NCBI GenBank assembly: GCA_024401745.1
Contig: JAKSKK010000014.1
Span: 1-54,056 of the forward strand
Direction: 5' to 3'
From: Bacteroidales bacterium
Lineage (GTDB): Bacteria > Bacteroidota > Bacteroidia > Bacteroidales > UBA932
DNA length: 54,056 nt
Shown piece by piece: positions 285 to 23,206 of the stretch (position 1 is the stretch's first letter; every line of letters begins with the position of its first letter). The notes beneath the pieces were generated by a model. That model saw only the letters and a program-made list of their open reading frames with translations. It did not search any database and was not told where the DNA came from. The position numbers were made by a program, and so were the translations under genes.

Positions 285-887
285 TTATTTGTGCCTCTCG
301 TAGAGCTCCTTTTCGATGTCAGACAGCGTCACGCCCATCTGCTCAAGCAGCACCAGATAGTGATACATCACATCCGATGCCTCATAGATGAATCTGTCGC
401 GCTTGCCGTCGACTGCCTCGATGACGCATTCCGCGCTCTCCTCACCGAACTTCTTTGCTACAGCCTTCACACCTTTAACGAACAGCCTGGTGGTGTACGA
501 GCCGTCGGGCATCGTGGCATGCCTGCTGCGGACGAGGTCGGAAAGCTTGCGCACGAATCCCTCCGAATCATCGGTGTCGAAGCAGCTTGTGGTGCCCCTA
601 TGACAGGTGGGCCCATCGGGGCGTGCCTTGATCAGCAGCGTGTCGGCATCGCAGTCGACATATATATCCTCTATATGAAGATAGTTGCCGCTGGTCTCTC
701 CCTTGGTCCAGAGGCGGCCCTTGCTGCGCGACCAGAACGTCACGCGGCCTTCTTCCTGGCTCTTCTGAAGAGCCTCGGAATTCATATACCCAAGCATCAG
801 CACCTTCAGGCTTACCGAATCCTGCACGATGACAGGGATCAGGCCGTCAGCGCACTTGGAGATGTTCAAATCTTCAAAACGTATCAT
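285..887 (-). CDS. hisIE: Bifunctional phosphoribosyl-AMP cyclohydrolase / phosphoribosyl-ATP pyrophosphatase
   Basis: Cytoplasmic enzyme for steps 2 and 3 of histidine synthesis: it hydrolyses PR-ATP to PR-AMP and then opens the purine ring. The 200-residue protein has a HisI domain first (WTKGETSGN, then DCDADTLL, then GPTCHRGTTSC, with the cysteines and aspartates expected to bind Zn and Mg). A HisE helical domain occupies about residues 110-200 (GEESAECVIEA, EASDVMYHYLVLL). I chose the ATG at 885-887, giving MIRFEDLN, because the open frame further upstream reads as out-of-frame hisF. That ATG overlaps the hisF stop by 4 bp (ATGA), suggesting translational coupling. It is the last gene of the his operon. 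Confidence 0.96.
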   Translation of the reverse strand: MIRFEDLNISKCADGLIPVIVQDSVSLKVLMLGYMNSEALQKSQEEGRVTFWSRSKGRLWTKGETSGNYLHIEDIYVDCDADTLLIKARPDGPTCHRGTTSCFDTDDSEGFVRKLSDLVRSRHATMPDGSYTTRLFVKGVKAVAKKFGEESAECVIEAVDGKRDRFIYEASDVMYHYLVLLEQMGVTLSDIEKELYERHK

Positions 888-1642
888 AATCTGACTGTTA
901 TTCCTTTTGCGGAGAGGGCCTCCTTGACCTCTCTCACCGTATATGTACCATAATGGAAGATGCTGGCGGCCAGCGCTGCATCGGCGGCGCCTAGTGTAAG
1001 GACGTCCGCAATGTCGTCGATGCTGCCGGCACCACCGGAAGCTATCACCGGGATGTCGAGCGTGGCGCAGAACTCCCTGTACAGGTCGCAGGGATATCCC
1101 TGACACACGCCGTCATGCTCCATTGAAGTCAGCAGGATCTCCCCTGCTCCCCTCTCCTGCGCCTCATGTGCCCACGCAAAGAGCTCACGGTCCGTAAGCC
1201 TCCTGCCGCCATGGGTAGTGGCCATCCATCTGCCGTCCTCAGCAAGCTTGGCATCGATTGCAACGACCACGAACTGGCTGCCGTACCTCCCGGCGATGGC
1301 GCTGATGAGACCCGGGTCCGCAATCGCGGCACTGTTCACCGATATCTTGTCGGCACCGGCGTCGAGCAGCCGCGCAGCCGTATCCAGCGATGCTATGCCA
1401 CCGCCTACCGTGAACGGAATGTTTATCCTGTCGGCAATCCTCTCCACAAGCGAAGAGAAGGTCGCACGCTCCTCGCAGGTAGCGCTTATGTCGAGGTACA
1501 CCAGCTCGTCAGCCCCGTCGGCGGCATATCTGGCGCCCAGTTCCACAGGGTCACCCACATCAGCCAGCCCGACGAAGTTGACACCCTTCACCGTCCTGCC
1601 TCCCTTGACGTCAAGGCAGGGTATTATTCGTTTTGCCACCAT
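884..1642 (-). CDS. hisF: Imidazole glycerol phosphate synthase, cyclase subunit
   Basis: HisF is the (beta/alpha)8-barrel partner of HisH. It uses the ammonia released by HisH to convert PRFAR into imidazole glycerol phosphate and AICAR. The 252-residue length is typical. Family landmarks are IPCLDVKGGRTVKG with catalytic D11, FTVGGGI, VVAIDAKL with the second catalytic Asp, and VIASGGAGS in the phosphate-binding half. It starts inside the last 19 bp of hisA and overlaps hisIE by 4 bp at its end, so it is embedded in the his operon. AICAR links the pathway to purine synthesis. Confidence 0.97.
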   Translation of the reverse strand: MVAKRIIPCLDVKGGRTVKGVNFVGLADVGDPVELGARYAADGADELVYLDISATCEERATFSSLVERIADRINIPFTVGGGIASLDTAARLLDAGADKISVNSAAIADPGLISAIAGRYGSQFVVVAIDAKLAEDGRWMATTHGGRRLTDRELFAWAHEAQERGAGEILLTSMEHDGVCQGYPCDLYREFCATLDIPVIASGGAGSIDDIADVLTLGAADAALAASIFHYGTYTVREVKEALSAKGITVRL

Positions 1643-2349
1643 GATTCAAGTTCTTTCAATGATATCCTTCCTTCGTAGAAGGCCTTCCCGACTATGACTT
1701 TCCTCAAACCGAGCGCATCCAGCGACGCCATGTCGGCGTTCGACCCTATTCCCCCGGACACGGTGAAGTCCACCGACGGGTACGCAGCCTGAAGCTCGAC
1801 ATACATCCCGGTTGCAGGGCCGCAGAGCATGCCGTCCCTTGAGATGTCAGTACAGACGACCTGCTTGAGGCCATCGGGCATGAAACGGTCCAGCATCTCG
1901 CGCAGCTCCAGAGGACTGTCTTCCTTCCATCCGTTGACGGCGACCCTGGTGCCACGCACGTCGGCACCGAGCACGATGCGGTCCGCACCCAGATCCTGCA
2001 GCCATTCTGCAAACAGCTCAGGCTGAAGTGCAGCTATGCTGCCGACTATCGCATAATCGGCACCGGCATTCAGCACGTCGTTCAATGCCGACGCAGTCTT
2101 TATGCCTCCGCCCCACTCTATCTTCATGCAGCCAAGCGATGCCACAGCCTCGAGCACCTTCAGGTTCGCGGGGCTGGACGCCTTCGCGCCGTCAAGGTCC
2201 ACAAGATGGATGCGCCTTGCGCCGGAATCGGCAAATCGGCGCGCCATATCGACCGGGGCGCCATATTCCTTCTTGCTGTCATAGTCACCCTGAGAAAGGC
2301 GCACGCAGCGTCCTTCTATTATGTCAATTGCCGGAATAACCTCTATCAT
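1624..2349 (-). CDS. hisA: ProFAR isomerase
   Basis: HisA isomerises ProFAR to PRFAR (an Amadori rearrangement) and is a beta-barrel paralogue of HisF. The 241-residue protein begins MIEVIPAIDIIEGRCVRL with catalytic D9, and carries EWGGGI, GADVRG with the second catalytic Asp, and TVSGGIGS for phosphate binding. The ATG overlaps the hisH stop by 4 bp, and its own 3' end overlaps hisF by 19 bp. Confidence 0.97.
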   Translation of the reverse strand: MIEVIPAIDIIEGRCVRLSQGDYDSKKEYGAPVDMARRFADSGARRIHLVDLDGAKASSPANLKVLEAVASLGCMKIEWGGGIKTASALNDVLNAGADYAIVGSIAALQPELFAEWLQDLGADRIVLGADVRGTRVAVNGWKEDSPLELREMLDRFMPDGLKQVVCTDISRDGMLCGPATGMYVELQAAYPSVDFTVSGGIGSNADMASLDALGLRKVIVGKAFYEGRISLKELESWWQNE

Positions 2350-2930
2350 AGCGCAAGGAAGTCAGCAAGTATGCGTTCGCCTACGTCGCCACTCTTTTCA
2401 GGGTGGAACTGGGTCCCGTAAAAGTTCTCATATTTCAATGCGGCGCTGAACATTCCGCCGTGATTGCTCGTAGCAATGGTATCGGAGCACAGGTCAGGCC
2501 TGTACGAGTGGACGTAGTAGACGTACGAACCGCCCTCGATGCCCTTGAAGAGCTTCGAGTCGAGGTTGTGGATGGTATTCCAGCCCATGTGAGGGACCTT
2601 CAGGCCATTTTCGGCCGTGAACTTCCTGACGTCGGTATCGAATATGCCTATGCAGTCGGTGTCGCCCTCTTCGCTGTGGCGGCACATCACCTGCATGCCT
2701 ATGCATATTCCAAGCACCGGACGGCGGATGGACCTTATCACATCCACAAGCCCGGCAGCGCGCAGATTCTGCATGGCCTCGGCGGCATTGCCTACGCCTG
2801 GCAGCAGCACCTTGGATGCCGCGCGGATCACGTCAGGATCGGACGTGACCTGATATTCCGCCCCAAGGCGGGAAAGGGCATTCTCCACCGAGCGGAGGTT
2901 ACCCATCTTATAGTCGACTATCGCAATCAT
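2346..2930 (-). CDS. hisH: Imidazole glycerol phosphate synthase, glutaminase subunit
   Basis: Class I glutamine amidotransferase that feeds ammonia to HisF. The catalytic triad is visible: the nucleophile in GICIGMQVM (C76) and the HxE pair in TQFHPEKSGDVG near the C-terminus. The N-terminus MIAIVDYKMGNLRSVENAL is typical of the family, as is the 194-residue length. It overlaps hisB and hisA by 4 bp on either side. Confidence 0.97.
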   Translation of the reverse strand: MIAIVDYKMGNLRSVENALSRLGAEYQVTSDPDVIRAASKVLLPGVGNAAEAMQNLRAAGLVDVIRSIRRPVLGICIGMQVMCRHSEEGDTDCIGIFDTDVRKFTAENGLKVPHMGWNTIHNLDSKLFKGIEGGSYVYYVHSYRPDLCSDTIATSNHGGMFSAALKYENFYGTQFHPEKSGDVGERILADFLAL

Positions 2931-3988
2931 AGCACACCTTTGCTGCTTGGGAGTTCATAGCTGAACACATTGCGGCGCACTGCCTGCCTGAGGGCACGGG
3001 CATACGCCTTGAAGACGGCCTCGGCGAGGTGATGGTTGTTCTCACCCTTCGCCTCGATGCGCAGATTGCACCTTGACGCGGTGCACAGGGACTGGAAGAA
3101 ATGTCTGAACATCTCTGTAGGCACATCCCCCACATATTCGCGGGTGAAGACCACATCCCAGCTGAAGTCGATTCTTCCGCCGAAGTCCATCAGCACCAGG
3201 GCGCGGCTCTCATCCATTGGCAGAGCAAAGCCGTAGCGCTCGATTCCACGCTTGTCGCCAAGCGCCTGGAAGATGGCTTCGCCCAGTGCAATGCCAACGT
3301 CCTCGATGGTGTGATGCTCGTCCACCTCAAGGTCACCCTTGCAGCAGACCTGCAACGACACGCCGGAGTGATGCGCAATCTGGTCAAGCATGTGGTCGAA
3401 GAACTTCAGGCCGGTATCCACAGAGGAATCCTCCTTTCCGTCAAGGTCCAGAGCCACGCGTATGTCAGTCTCCTTCGTCTTTCTCTCGATGACGGCACAT
3501 CGGTCGGAACGGCGTACAGCTTCCGCAACTGCCTGCCAGTCACAGTCCGGGCCCAGGATCAGCGCCTTCGCTCCAAGGTTCTCCGCCAGCTGACGATCCG
3601 ACTCCCTGTCGCCAACCACCCAGCTGCCGGCCAGGTCGTAGTCACCTGAAAGGTACTTGCCGAACATACCGGTTCCGGGCTTGCGGCACGGCGAATTGTC
3701 TTCGAGGAAATGCGGATCTATGAGCATGTCGTCGAACACGACTCCCTCGCCCTTCAGCACCGAGAGCATCTTTTCGTGCGCCGGCCAGAAAGTGTCCTCA
3801 GGGAACGATTCGGTCCCAAGGCCATCCTGATTGGTGCACATCACGAGGTCATAGTCCAAGGCACGCAGGCTCTTCAGCGCACTGATCGCGCCAGGCACGA
3901 ACTCCAGCTTCTCCAGGGAATCCACCTGCTCGTCGGCAGGCTCGGCTATGACTGTACCGTCACGGTCAATTATCAGCAGTCTTCTCAT
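2927..3988 (-). CDS. hisB: Bifunctional histidinol-phosphatase / imidazoleglycerol-phosphate dehydratase
   Basis: This two-domain protein catalyses the dehydratase step and the later phosphatase step of the pathway. Residues 1 to about 165 are a HAD phosphatase, with IDRDGT (D8, D10), CTNQDG and GDRESD as HAD motifs. Residues about 167-353 are the IGP dehydratase, with the metal-binding histidine clusters FFDHMLDQIAHHSG, DEHHTIED and ENNHHLAEA. The 353-residue length matches the fused form known from enterobacteria and Bacteroidota. It overlaps hisDC and hisH by 4 bp each. Confidence 0.97.
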   Translation of the reverse strand: MRRLLIIDRDGTVIAEPADEQVDSLEKLEFVPGAISALKSLRALDYDLVMCTNQDGLGTESFPEDTFWPAHEKMLSVLKGEGVVFDDMLIDPHFLEDNSPCRKPGTGMFGKYLSGDYDLAGSWVVGDRESDRQLAENLGAKALILGPDCDWQAVAEAVRRSDRCAVIERKTKETDIRVALDLDGKEDSSVDTGLKFFDHMLDQIAHHSGVSLQVCCKGDLEVDEHHTIEDVGIALGEAIFQALGDKRGIERYGFALPMDESRALVLMDFGGRIDFSWDVVFTREYVGDVPTEMFRHFFQSLCTASRCNLRIEAKGENNHHLAEAVFKAYARALRQAVRRNVFSYELPSSKGVL

Positions 3989-6306
3989 ATTTCGGATAGT
4001 ATCTTCAGCATTTCATCGTTTTCTTCGGGAGTTCCGACGGTTATCCTGAGGCACCCATGGCATCCGGCAACGTTTGTGCGGTTACGGACGATTATTCCGG
4101 CCTTGACCAGAAGGTCGTATGTACCGTCGGCGTCATCCACCTGTACCAGTATGAAGTTGGCCTCGCTCGGCCAGACCTTGCGCACACAATTGACGGAGGG
4201 CAATACTTTAAGAAGCCTTTCCCTCTCTGAGAGGATCAGCTCTATTTCCTTCCCGACGGGCCTGGCAAGGGCATTCATCGCCACTTCCATCGAGGCCTTG
4301 CTGATGTTGTACGGATACTTGACCATCGACATGAGCCTGATGATTTCAGGGGAAGCGATGGCGAGGCCTATCCTCAGGGAAGCAAGTCCCCATGCCTTCG
4401 ACAAGGTCTGCAGCACAATTATGTTGGGGCACGAGAGTGCAACGCTCTCACGTGAACAGAAGTCGCCGTAGGCCTCATCTACCACCACGACGCCGCGGAA
4501 CCGGCGGGCTATGCCCATGATGAGCTCAGGGTCGAAAGCATTCCCGGATGGATTGTTGGGCGAGCAGATGAATATCGCCTTGGTCCTGGCGTCGGTTGCG
4601 GCAAGCAGGGCGTCAGCATCGAGAGAGAAGTCTTCGGCAAGGCGGAACGGGCGGCACTCAATGTCGTTCGTGGCGGCAGCCACCTTGTACATTCCGTAGC
4701 TCGGTTCGATCGAGACCACGTTGTCCTTCCCCGGTGTACAGAAGATGCGGAACACCAGGTCAATGGCCTCATCGCTGCCGTTGCCAAGGAAGATGTTCCT
4801 GGCAGGAACGCCCTTCAGTTCGGATATCCTGGCCTTGAGTTCCTTCTGATGAGGGTCAGGGTACCTGTTGTATCCATTCTGGAACGGGTTCTCGTTCGCG
4901 TCCAGGAAGACGCCCAGACGGCCCTGATACTCATCGCGGGCCGTGCTGTATGGCGCCAGGTTCAATATGTTGGGTCTGACTACGGCATCAAGGGAGAAGG
5001 CTACCTCACTCTCCGGTGCGGGCGCATCTGCCATTCTGACCCTGACAGCATTGGCATGAGCCTCCAAGCCTTCAGCCTCAGCCATGTTCACGATAGTCTC
5101 CGAAAGATTCCTGAGCCCCTGCGCAGACAGCTTCTGCAAGGTCATCTGCCTCATGAAGCTGTCAAGGCCCACGCCGCTGAACGAACGGGCCCAGCCTGAA
5201 GTCGGCAGAGTATGGTTGGTCCCGGAGGCATAGTCGCCGGCGCTCTCAGGGCTGTAGCTGCCGATGAACACGCTGCCGGCACAGTTTATCCTTTCAGCGA
5301 CGGTATCGGCATCCTCCATTGCAATTATCAGATGCTCTGGCGCATAGCAGTCGGCAAATGCCAGCATATCGTCGATGCTGTCGAACACGACGGCACGGCT
5401 TCCGGCAAGAGAGCTGCCAATGAATTCACCTCTGGGCAGCAGCGCCGCCTGCCTGCTCACCTCGAGCAGGACCTTGTCGGCAAATGAAGGGTCAGTCGTG
5501 ACGAGCATCGCCTGGCTGTCACGGCCGTGCTCAGCCTGAGACAGCAGGTCCGAGGCCACGTATGCAGGATTCGCACTTCCGTCGGCGAGCACCATCACTT
5601 CTGACGGGCCGGCCGGCATGTCGATGGCGACGGAATCCACGCTCACGATCTGCTTCGCCGTGGTCACGTAGCTGTTTCCGGGGCCGAATATCTTGTCGAC
5701 CTTCTCGATGCTCTCGGTGCCGTATGCCAGAGCGGCCACGGCCTGGGCGCCACCGACCTTGAACACCTCGGTGATTCCGCACATCTGCGCGGCATAGAGG
5801 ACTTCGGCATTGACCTTTCCGTCCTTACCGGCCGGCGTACACAGTTCACGCACCGGGCAGCCTGCCACCCTGGAAGGGACTCCGAGCATCAACACGGTCG
5901 AGAACAGAGGCGCGGTGCCTCCCGGAATATACATTCCAACCTTCTGTATGGCAACAGGCTTGCGCACGCACCACACTCCAGGCGAAGTCTCAAGCTCCAC
6001 TCTCGACGGCATCTGGGCCGCATGGAAGGCATATATGTTGCGATAGGCCTGGGCGATAGCCTTCTTGACTTCCGGGCTCACCTTCCCTTCAGCCTCCGCA
6101 AACTCTTCGGCGCTGACCTTGATGGCCCCGAGCTGCACCTTGTCGATTTCCAGCGCAAGCTGCCTTATTGCAGCATCGCCACCTTCCCTGACCATGCCGA
6201 CGATGCCACGCACGCGGGACTCCAGTTCAGGACTGGTACCGCATTCAGCAACGCGGCGACACAGGCTGGGCCACTCTGCCCTGCAAGGATTGATGAAAAG
6301 TTCCAT
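3985..6306 (-). CDS. hisDC: Fused histidinol dehydrogenase - histidinol-phosphate aminotransferase (HisD-HisC)
   Basis: One open frame of 773 residues carries two normally separate enzymes. Residues 1 to about 428 are HisD, which oxidises histidinol to histidine. Visible are the zinc-site residues in SQAEHGRDSQ (Q257, H260), catalytic E324-H325 in YAPEH, and GDYASGTNH. Residues about 438-773 are HisC, a PLP fold-type I aminotransferase with SPNNPSG, VVDEAYGD (D610, Y613), the PLP lysine in LSKAWG (K637) and R645. The linker DAPAPESEVA looks like a true spacer, and HisC is complete except for its start methionine. HisD and HisC act around the phosphatase of HisB. The ATG overlaps the hisG stop (TAATG). 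The alternative is loss of a stop codon between genes that were once adjacent, but the clean linker argues for an established fusion. Confidence 0.95.
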   Translation of the reverse strand: MELFINPCRAEWPSLCRRVAECGTSPELESRVRGIVGMVREGGDAAIRQLALEIDKVQLGAIKVSAEEFAEAEGKVSPEVKKAIAQAYRNIYAFHAAQMPSRVELETSPGVWCVRKPVAIQKVGMYIPGGTAPLFSTVLMLGVPSRVAGCPVRELCTPAGKDGKVNAEVLYAAQMCGITEVFKVGGAQAVAALAYGTESIEKVDKIFGPGNSYVTTAKQIVSVDSVAIDMPAGPSEVMVLADGSANPAYVASDLLSQAEHGRDSQAMLVTTDPSFADKVLLEVSRQAALLPRGEFIGSSLAGSRAVVFDSIDDMLAFADCYAPEHLIIAMEDADTVAERINCAGSVFIGSYSPESAGDYASGTNHTLPTSGWARSFSGVGLDSFMRQMTLQKLSAQGLRNLSETIVNMAEAEGLEAHANAVRVRMADAPAPESEVAFSLDAVVRPNILNLAPYSTARDEYQGRLGVFLDANENPFQNGYNRYPDPHQKELKARISELKGVPARNIFLGNGSDEAIDLVFRIFCTPGKDNVVSIEPSYGMYKVAAATNDIECRPFRLAEDFSLDADALLAATDARTKAIFICSPNNPSGNAFDPELIMGIARRFRGVVVVDEAYGDFCSRESVALSCPNIIVLQTLSKAWGLASLRIGLAIASPEIIRLMSMVKYPYNISKASMEVAMNALARPVGKEIELILSERERLLKVLPSVNCVRKVWPSEANFILVQVDDADGTYDLLVKAGIIVRNRTNVAGCHGCLRITVGTPEENDEMLKILSEI

Positions 6307-7157
6307 TAGAGTATTATCTTGTCAAGTCCAACAACAAGGATTCCCTCTGCTCCGATAGCCTTGAGCTGACGTACCTTCTCCCACAGGTCGCCCTCATCCA
6401 CCACAGAGTGCAGGGAGCACCAGCCCTCCGTCGCCAGAGGCATGACGGTAGGGCTCCTCATGGCAGGCAGAAGCTTTATCGCCTCATCAAGGGATGCCGT
6501 GGGAATATTCATGAGCAGGTATTTCTTTCCCCTGCTGAGCTTGTGGGACTCGATACGGAATTCCAGCTCGGCAAGAGCCTGACGTTCTTCCTCGCTAAGG
6601 TTCCTGTTGGCAATGAGCACAGCCTCGGACTCGAACACCCTCTCGACTTCGACGAGCCCGTTCGAAACAAGGGTGCTGCCAGACGACACGATGTCGAAGA
6701 TGCAGTCAGCAATGCCTGCGGCGGGTGCGATTTCAACCGAGCCTGTGATAACCTCGATTTCAGCCTTGATGCCATTCTCATCCAGGAAAGACTTGAGAAT
6801 GCGGGGATACGAGGTTGCTATTCTCTTGCCCTGGAACCACTCCAGGCCATCATATTCCTCTTTCTTGGGAATGGCAAGGCTGATCCGGCAGCCTCCGAAC
6901 CCAAGGCCTGTGACGACGTCGACGTCTGCGCCCCTCTCCTTGACTTCATTAAGACCGACTATGCCGAGTGACGATGTTCCATTGGCAACCACCAGGGGGA
7001 TGTCGTCATCCCTCAGGAACAGGGCCTCCATGTCATAGCCCCTGGCCTTCGAGAGGAACTTCCTCTTTGGATCGTCAACATTGATTCCGATGCTGTTGAG
7101 AAGAGCAAGACTCTCCTCGTTCAACCTTCCTTTAGACTGTAATGCAATACGTAACAT
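6306..7157 (-). CDS. hisG: ATP phosphoribosyltransferase, long form
   Basis: First committed enzyme of histidine synthesis: it joins ATP and PRPP to make PR-ATP. At 283 residues it is the long form, with a C-terminal ACT-like regulatory domain (about 205-283, starting near SHKLSRGKKYLLMN), so it should be inhibited by histidine and need no HisZ. The PRPP region is IADCIFDIVSSGSTL. I chose the ATG at 7155-7157 (MLRIALQSKGRL); codons further upstream would run into the attenuator hairpin. The start lies just after the U-tract of that hairpin, so transcription of hisG depends on read-through. Confidence 0.96.
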   Translation of the reverse strand: MLRIALQSKGRLNEESLALLNSIGINVDDPKRKFLSKARGYDMEALFLRDDDIPLVVANGTSSLGIVGLNEVKERGADVDVVTGLGFGGCRISLAIPKKEEYDGLEWFQGKRIATSYPRILKSFLDENGIKAEIEVITGSVEIAPAAGIADCIFDIVSSGSTLVSNGLVEVERVFESEAVLIANRNLSEEERQALAELEFRIESHKLSRGKKYLLMNIPTASLDEAIKLLPAMRSPTVMPLATEGWCSLHSVVDEGDLWEKVRQLKAIGAEGILVVGLDKIIL

Positions 7158-7160
7158 AAC

Positions 7161-7193
7161 AAAAAAAAGACTCGCCGCATCTTCTGGCAAGTC
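7161..7193 (-). terminator. his attenuator terminator
   Basis: The minus strand carries GACTTGCC, a nine-base loop, GGCGAGTC (8 bp, one G-U pair) and then eight Ts, an intrinsic terminator. It ends 3 bp before the hisG ATG. A possible antiterminator exists: GGTGAG at 7234-7239, a few bases after the leader-peptide stop, can pair with CTTGCC (7186-7191) in the left arm of the terminator. A ribosome stalled on the His codons would leave GGTGAG free to pair, whereas one that reaches the stop codon would cover it. The hairpin is clear; the antiterminator is my inference. Confidence 0.85.
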
Positions 7194-7242
7194 AAACCGT
7201 TTTAATCATTCAAAAGACAACTGCAACAGCAAGCTCACCGTA

Positions 7243-7287
7243 TTATGAAATATGGTGGTGATGATGGATGTAGCTGCTCATTGTCAT
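7243..7287 (-). CDS. hisL: his operon leader peptide
   Basis: A 14-codon reading frame, MTMSSYIHHHHHIS, contains five consecutive histidine codons (CAT CAT CAC CAC CAT). It sits between the his promoter and an intrinsic terminator directly in front of hisG. This is the layout of the enterobacterial his leader, in which shortage of charged tRNA-His stalls the ribosome on the His run and prevents termination. The first ATG is 7 nt after the -7 box, so the mRNA may be leaderless; a second ATG two codons later could also be used. No Shine-Dalgarno sequence is visible. The gene is too short for standard gene callers. Confidence 0.85.
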   Translation of the reverse strand: MTMSSYIHHHHHIS

Positions 7288-7294
7288 TTCAAAG

Positions 7295-7302
7295 CAAATA
7301 TA
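7295..7302 (-). promoter_or_regulatory. his operon promoter, -7 box
   Basis: TATATTTG followed by C, a perfect TAnnTTTG, lies 7 nt before the leader-peptide ATG. The -33 position, 19 bp upstream, falls in the T-tract of the groEL terminator and reads TTTT, so terminator and promoter share sequence. The start site should fall at or just before the leader ATG. Confidence 0.75.
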
Positions 7303-23154: not shown

Positions 23155-23185
23155 CAAAAAAAGAGCCCCGGGAATCCGGAGCTCT
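23155..23185 (-). terminator. ompA intrinsic terminator
   Basis: AGAGCTCCGG, a four-base loop, CCGGGGCTCT (10 bp, one G-U) and then a T-run on the minus strand, 21 bp after the OmpA-family stop codon. Confidence 0.92.
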
Positions 23186-23206
23186 TATTTATAGTCGCAA
23201 ATCTAA

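Follow-up and report, generated by a model that had tools for sequence, protein, structure and literature searches.

A putative ribosome-mediated attenuator of the histidine operon in a Bacteroidales genome and its counterparts in relatives

Introduction

The his leader of Escherichia coli and Salmonella combines His codons and alternative RNA helices with an intrinsic terminator before hisG, and the E. coli trp leader follows a 1:2, 2:3, 3:4 pairing logic within a length similar to that of the leader described here. Vitreschak and others (2004) reportedly listed some attenuators in Bacteroidetes/Chlorobi. In the available portions of the sources, hisG leaders in Gammaproteobacteria are named (PMC4833913), and a treatment of the his operons of the superphylum mentions attenuation once in its body text, with respect to enterobacteria (PMC8305728). 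The initial annotation of the present locus regarded his-leader attenuation as best known from Gammaproteobacteria; this is right, but the phylum already has the Bacteroid-trp leader, RF01692 (PMC2864571, Table 1), and, in Flavobacteriaceae, structured elements upstream of hisG and of pheA, which lack Rfam matches and are described, in the accessible part of that study, together with clues of leader-peptide attenuation before amino acid operons (PMC9723704). Within the accessible text of the open-licence literature searched, we found neither Asn leaders nor tandem His leaders described, nor a his leader in Bacteroidales.

Here we analyze a stretch of 54,056 nucleotides (the window) from a Bacteroidales bacterium. 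Its his locus resembles that of E. coli and Salmonella in having a leader, alternative helices, a terminator and the operon order GDC(NB)HAF(IE) (order as given in the available text of PMC8305728). It differs in that the window and 20 relatives have no Rfam leader match at gathering score, in its arms, which are mostly GGTAGGYY, GGCTTRCC and GGTRAGCC, in its Bacteroidota promoter, and in belonging to a phylum described as lacking Shine-Dalgarno sequences (PMC7366714, available text). Compared with the E. coli trp leader, the amino acid and sequence are different and the leader ATG lies close to the promoter box. Bacteroid-trp senses Trp, whereas the element in the window would sense His, and the RF01692 covariance model gave no match in the window or its assembly. 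The Flavobacteriaceae element shares phylum and gene with ours but belongs to another class, and the two are likened by published description, as far as it was available, rather than by structure.

Results

Organization of the leader and the his operon

On the minus strand of the window, positions 7302-7158 read as a TATATTTG box, the leader MTMSSYIHHHHHIS, GGTGAG, a terminator consisting of GACTTGCC, a loop of 9 nt, GGCGAGTC and U8, then GTT and the hisG ATG (Table 1). This agrees base for base with the initial annotation, which had placed a box, a 14-codon leader with five His codons and a terminator ending 3 nt before hisG within 142 bp. The leader has its first ATG at 7287, a second in-frame ATG at 7281 and a TAA stop at 7245-7243; with five His among its 14 codons it has the composition of an amino-acid leader. 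An intrinsic terminator lies between leader and first gene both in the window and in the set of relatives.

Five consecutive CAY codons occur at five separate places (10 overlapping matches) in the window's own assembly, which is partial at 1.99 Mb in 63 contigs. Three of the four other places were read; they look like parts of longer coding DNA, and no terminator was seen in the stretch read. A run of ten CAY codons lies elsewhere in the same assembly (G000:C14:23188-23217, plus strand).

A complete his operon follows the leader, with hisG first, then a fused hisD-hisC, hisNB, hisH, hisA, hisF and hisIE. A single open frame for hisD and hisC is also found in four of 68 comparable loci of relatives (L049, L097, L105, L107). 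The best-scoring solved relative of HisG is chain 1h3d, presumably E. coli HisG, at 217.1 bits (next, 204.9). The idea that the attenuator arrived with the operon from Gammaproteobacteria was dropped, as neither the E. coli-like gene order nor the 1h3d match is a test of transfer.

Table 1. Features of the his locus in the window and of related leaders in other genomes
Feature	Position	Strand	Evidence or remarks
-7 promoter box TATATTTG (consensus TAnnTTTG)	7295..7302	-	sequence
Leader ORF MTMSSYIHHHHHIS, 14 codons + stop	7243..7287	-	sequence; His-rich counterparts before hisG in relatives
Segment 1, five His codons, proposed sensor; CACC able to pair with GGTG	7252..7266	-	sequence and folding
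Segment 2, GGTGAG, proposed antiterminator 5' arm; mostly GGTAGGYY in relatives	7234..7239	-	alignment and folding
Segment 3, GACTTGCC, common to antiterminator and terminator	7186..7193	-	alignment, pairing tests, folding
Segment 4, GGCGAGTC, terminator 3' arm	7169..7176	-	sequence and pairing test
Terminator U-run, eight T, ending 3 nt before hisG	7161..7168	-	sequence
hisG, long form	6306..7157	-	TIGR00070, TIGR03455
hisD-hisC fused frame, 773 aa	3985..6306	-	TIGR00069, then TIGR01141
hisNB, bifunctional	2927..3988	-	profile match
hisH	2346..2930	-	profile match
hisA	1624..2349	-	profile match
hisF	884..1642	-	profile match
hisIE	285..893	-	profile match
Tandem His leaders (genomes G250, G234, G319, G048, G076, G166, G100, G298, G193)	loci L168-L175, L138		six family labels
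Asn-rich leader + terminator before asnA	L177 410-720		TIGR00669, 382.6 bits (cut-off 292.8)
Similar Asn-rich leader + terminator before asnA	L180 395-705		gene identified by reading
Asn-rich leader + terminator before asnB	L187 370-600		930.7 bits (cut-off 499)
Phe/Tyr leader MVLYNKAYYYYYFYFSNKVR + terminator before prephenate dehydratase	L178 360-520		best family 189.1 bits, below cut-off 219
Leader MIINITIKKHTKMKRVLHGRL + terminator before asd (aspartate-semialdehyde dehydrogenase)	L183 2040-2180	-	TIGR01296, 441.1 bits (cut-off 324.2)
Phe/Tyr leaders before prephenate dehydratase	L194, L196, L198, L204, L195, L189, L191, L190, L188		

Conservation of leader and terminator

HisG was found in 35 of 61 genomes, the window's own included. 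Our sample of 109 regions upstream of hisG comprises the window, 79 of the 80 loci of a first set (kept from 589 confirmed; the nearest are from Rikenellaceae, Alistipes and Bacteroidales) and 29 of the 30 loci of a second; L049, which has no upstream DNA, and L001, which is the window again, were left out. These regions are not all independent because the two sets overlap (L014 and L044 have an identical leader). Defining a leader as a frame with an ATG start and at least three His within six residues, we found one in 72 of the 109 regions and a leader together with a terminator in 71. A comparison of the regions upstream of hisG had been suggested in the initial annotation.

The 37 regions without a leader by this rule include nine from Prevotellaceae, eight from Bacteroidaceae and three from Akkermansia. 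At least two are misses of the rule, namely L104, which has a GTG start and matches the covariance model R1 described below, and L025, whose extract is cut and whose genome (G048) carries two units. Some near relatives also lack a leader by rule: L035, L037 and three of 17 loci of the window's genus (L002, L004, L006), among them the closest, L002, with a HisG 82% identical; the leader is found in 14 of the 17. Four leaders (L073, L078, L096, L140) are differently shaped His leaders ending in GRL, and in the first three the last part of the leader frame contains a segment GGTAGGCT.

It is hardly credible that this is a chance His frame next to the terminator of a different transcript. In favor of such a reading, groEL is the immediate upstream neighbor, and neither the fold nor the switch score of the element in the window stands out (for the overall fold of the region, z is -1.27, with 25 of 200 shuffles folding at least as well), but groEL has its own terminator at 7350-7326, and leader and terminator recur together before hisG. 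Conservation bears also on whether the leader chiefly controls translation, its hairpin hiding the hisG start until ribosome position opens it, with termination secondary. The terminator stem in the window ends just 11 nt before the hisG ATG (7157), as such a mechanism would have it; among relatives, however, this distance ranges from 11 to more than 200 nt while the U-run is kept, and we judge translational control unlikely.

R1 was built from the alignment described below, and its matches were counted at E<=0.01. At the level of the order, 191 of 295 genomes have one, and at that of the phylum 127 of 296; these are not counts of his attenuators: many of the weaker matches cover the terminator half alone, and some are other leaders or false. 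Among the best matches, at 57 loci, 52 (the window included, which like some others belonged to the training set) have HisG downstream in the same direction, at about 1-225 nt, and a His-rich leader, some of them outside the order; the remaining five are L154, L161, L163, L164 and L167. In the 80-locus set (512 kb; most of the loci were in the training set), 46 loci have a plus-strand match, each upstream of hisG; the other five matches cover these elements again, from the minus strand.

Base pairing and predicted switching

For the alignment, L041, L042, L053, L054, L055, L057, L097 and two identical sequences were left out, giving 63 sequences, and removal of three long ones (L065, L068, L089) left 60; because of the dropped rows, the pairing tests and the covariance model favor well-behaved members. 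The terminator arms in this set are mostly RGGCTTRCC and GGTRAGCC, with a GGTAGGYY segment after the His codons.

Across the 60 sequences, 96.3% of the cells of the terminator helix are paired, and all nine of its pairs show changes on both sides (63 cells, with 10.8 in shuffles). For the antiterminator helix the share of paired cells is 88.8%, compared with 27.5-48.5% when it is slid by one to three columns, and both this share (85.8 in shuffles) and the covariation score lie above all 500 shuffles. Covariation had been proposed as a check of the GGTGAG/CTTGCC pairing, and here the outcome is divided: it is clear for the terminator but, for the antiterminator, both-sided changes are weak (four of eight pairs; 10 cells against 5.2, a number that 59 of 500 shuffles match or exceed). 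Since the middle segment pairs with both neighbors, little variation would be expected. Altered antiterminators that still fit can be read from the alignment, as GGAAGC:GCTTCC in L021 and GGCAGA:TCTGCC in L024.

We modeled the switch by folding RNA that ended at the terminator loop, in three states: a ribosome stalled in the densest His cluster, on its second His codon; a ribosome at the stop codon; and no ribosome. Cover by the ribosome was taken to extend to 12 nt, counted from the first base of the A-site codon. The calculation comprised 71 units (L097, which has no terminator, being left out) with 60 shuffles each, in which the middle was dinucleotide-shuffled. On average, the first terminator arm is sequestered with a probability of 0.86 with a stalled ribosome, 0.35 with a ribosome at the stop and 0.52 in free RNA, against 0.57 and 0.50 for stalled and stop in shuffled controls, so that the stall-minus-stop difference is 0.51 compared with 0.07 in shuffles. 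For 38 of the 71 units, no more than 5% of the shuffles reach the difference of the unit itself; four units show no difference. In these models the units, as a set, have an exclusive antiterminator masked by a ribosome at the stop codon; for the window alone, with values of 0.86 and 0.45, the result is not significant, 10% of its shuffles performing equally well. With a stalled ribosome and before the last arm is made, the best fold of the window's RNA (-15.7 kcal/mol) has GGTGAG:CTTGCC closing over a weak hairpin. The antiterminator suggested in the initial annotation is supported by its pairing in relatives, its presence in this fold and the predicted switching of the set.

When the full terminator is allowed at equilibrium, it forms in the window with a probability of 0.71-0.84 with a stalled ribosome, 0.98 at the stop and 0.95 in free RNA; over the 71 units the stalled and stop values are 0.65 and 0.90. 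Since even a stalled ribosome leaves the terminator ahead, the switch would need co-transcriptional order, the antiterminator forming first, as in classical attenuation. In ribosome-free RNA, the CACC of the His codons is predicted to pair with GGTG, and the arrangement hence follows the classical 1:2, 2:3, 3:4 logic. The contrast previously drawn with a design of four long segments was mistaken, the E. coli trp leader being of similar length.

Tandem leaders and leaders for other amino acids

Two His leaders in series before hisG, each with its own terminator, occur in at least nine of 295 genomes of the order. A tenth genome, G205, in which the end of one more terminator lies upstream, was not picked out by the tandem rule, and the same rule found no tandem within 700 nt in the 80-locus set. 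Folding support is mixed: in just two of 16 tandem units is the stall/stop difference reached by 5% of shuffles or fewer. The arrangement recalls Salmonella mgtCBR, where tandem attenuators are described as responding to two signals, ATP and proline (PMC3641672, available text), in that both have two attenuating leaders in series; the nine relatives have two His leaders, and the window has one.

Away from his operons, 11 places with R1 matches were read (L176-L187, L186 aside): three are his, five belong to other amino acids, and L176, L182 and L185 were judged false or unclear. The five non-His leaders precede asnA (twice), asnB, a prephenate dehydratase gene and asd (Table 1), and in each 0 to 5% of shuffles reach the stall/stop difference. 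Behind each of the two asnA leaders lies a second frame containing runs of Asn and of Pro; a terminator for this frame was detected in L177 only. The Thr, Ile, Lys and Met codons of the asd leader match the products of its pathway. A Phe/Tyr-rich leader with a terminator precedes prephenate dehydratase (pheA) in nine of 11 upstream regions chosen from 26 matches; four of the nine are in the window's genus, as are both regions without one, and the gene had no match in the window's incomplete assembly. In G012, also of the window's genus, a Bacteroid-trp match over the cut-off accompanies a frame MMNAYWWWRPLQLRQS with three Trp codons in a row, a terminator-like hairpin and a trpB-like frame.

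That R1 matches away from his lead to leaders whose codons suit the next gene counts in favor of attenuation. It also bears on a riboswitch, T-box or protein-binding leader that senses histidine or tRNA directly, the His run being incidental. Such an element would fit the observed conservation of RNA arms beyond the leader peptide, but the leader codons of the sister elements change with the target gene, and in searches of the window and of 20 of the 80 relatives' loci no Rfam 15 leader or other cis-regulatory family reached its gathering score (five matches at E<=5 near the window leader are all far below theirs). We consider direct sensing very unlikely. Rfam 15 presumably includes a His leader family.

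Discussion

With a probability of roughly 0.9, we regard the element as a ribosome-mediated transcription attenuator of the his operon, and propose the following model for its action. RNA polymerase would start a few nucleotides before the leader ATG, with a ribosome translating the leader behind it. When His-tRNA is ample, the ribosome would reach the stop codon and cover GGTGAG, the GACTTGCC/GGCGAGTC terminator would form, and transcription would end before hisG. When it is scarce, the ribosome would stall at the His codons, leaving GGTGAG free to pair with CTTGCC while the second terminator arm has yet to be transcribed, and the polymerase would read on into hisG-DC-NB-H-A-F-IE. Without translation, pairing of the His codons with GGTG would favor the terminator.

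What is the relevance of this leader? Its kind is familiar, but this particular member is new and widely shared. It has no Rfam match and offers a testable account of how a major gut phylum may control histidine synthesis. Because attenuation needs a ribosome close behind the polymerase, such leaders may serve as natural probes of transcription-translation coupling in the absence of Shine-Dalgarno sequences. A textbook mechanism would gain in range from the Asn leaders and tandem His leaders found in relatives. We lean, with some reserve, toward a phylum-wide set of attenuators built on a single plan for His, Asn, Phe/Tyr, Trp and the aspartate family, some His units being doubled and some leaders lying near the RNA 5' end. 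If so, ribosome and polymerase would be closely coupled in a phylum without Shine-Dalgarno initiation, and the control of asnA and asnB by attenuation at Asn codons would be a form of regulation that we did not find described in the literature searched.

The leader 5' end deserves separate comment. A box resembling TAnnTTTG precedes 64 of 71 leaders, counted with at most one mismatch in TTTG, picked by score and without a shuffled control. The nearest in-frame ATG follows after 5-9 nt in 20 of these 64 and after 13-33 nt in 44, with no case at 10-12 nt; in the window the spacing is 7 nt to the first ATG and 13 nt to the second. TTG is absent at the -33 place in the window and present in about 46 of 63 boxed regions (L098 left out). 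If the box is centered at -7, the 7-nt distance would imply a 5' untranslated region of about 4 nt. For comparison, about 3.7% of such regions in B. thetaiotaomicron are shorter than 10 nt (PMC7366714), and leaderless mRNAs make up 5.5% in F. psychrophilum (PMC9723704), according to the available text of both sources. It is plausible from the spacing that the window's leader mRNA is leaderless or has a 5' untranslated region of a few nucleotides, which is no general trait of the element.

A scan of the window for strong terminators after short ORFs yielded no worthwhile candidate for a second attenuator, at a threshold that also excluded the his terminator. A terminator at 23161-23186, before a frame of 417 aa, was considered as one and rejected, as it ends the upstream gene. 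At 23186-23141 (minus strand), this terminator is directly followed by TATATTTG, with an ATG 4 nt on that opens the 417-aa frame, which by eye resembles folC; its mRNA is probably nearly leaderless, judging by this spacing. A perfect box within 10 nt of the start is found for two of the 37 genes of the window.
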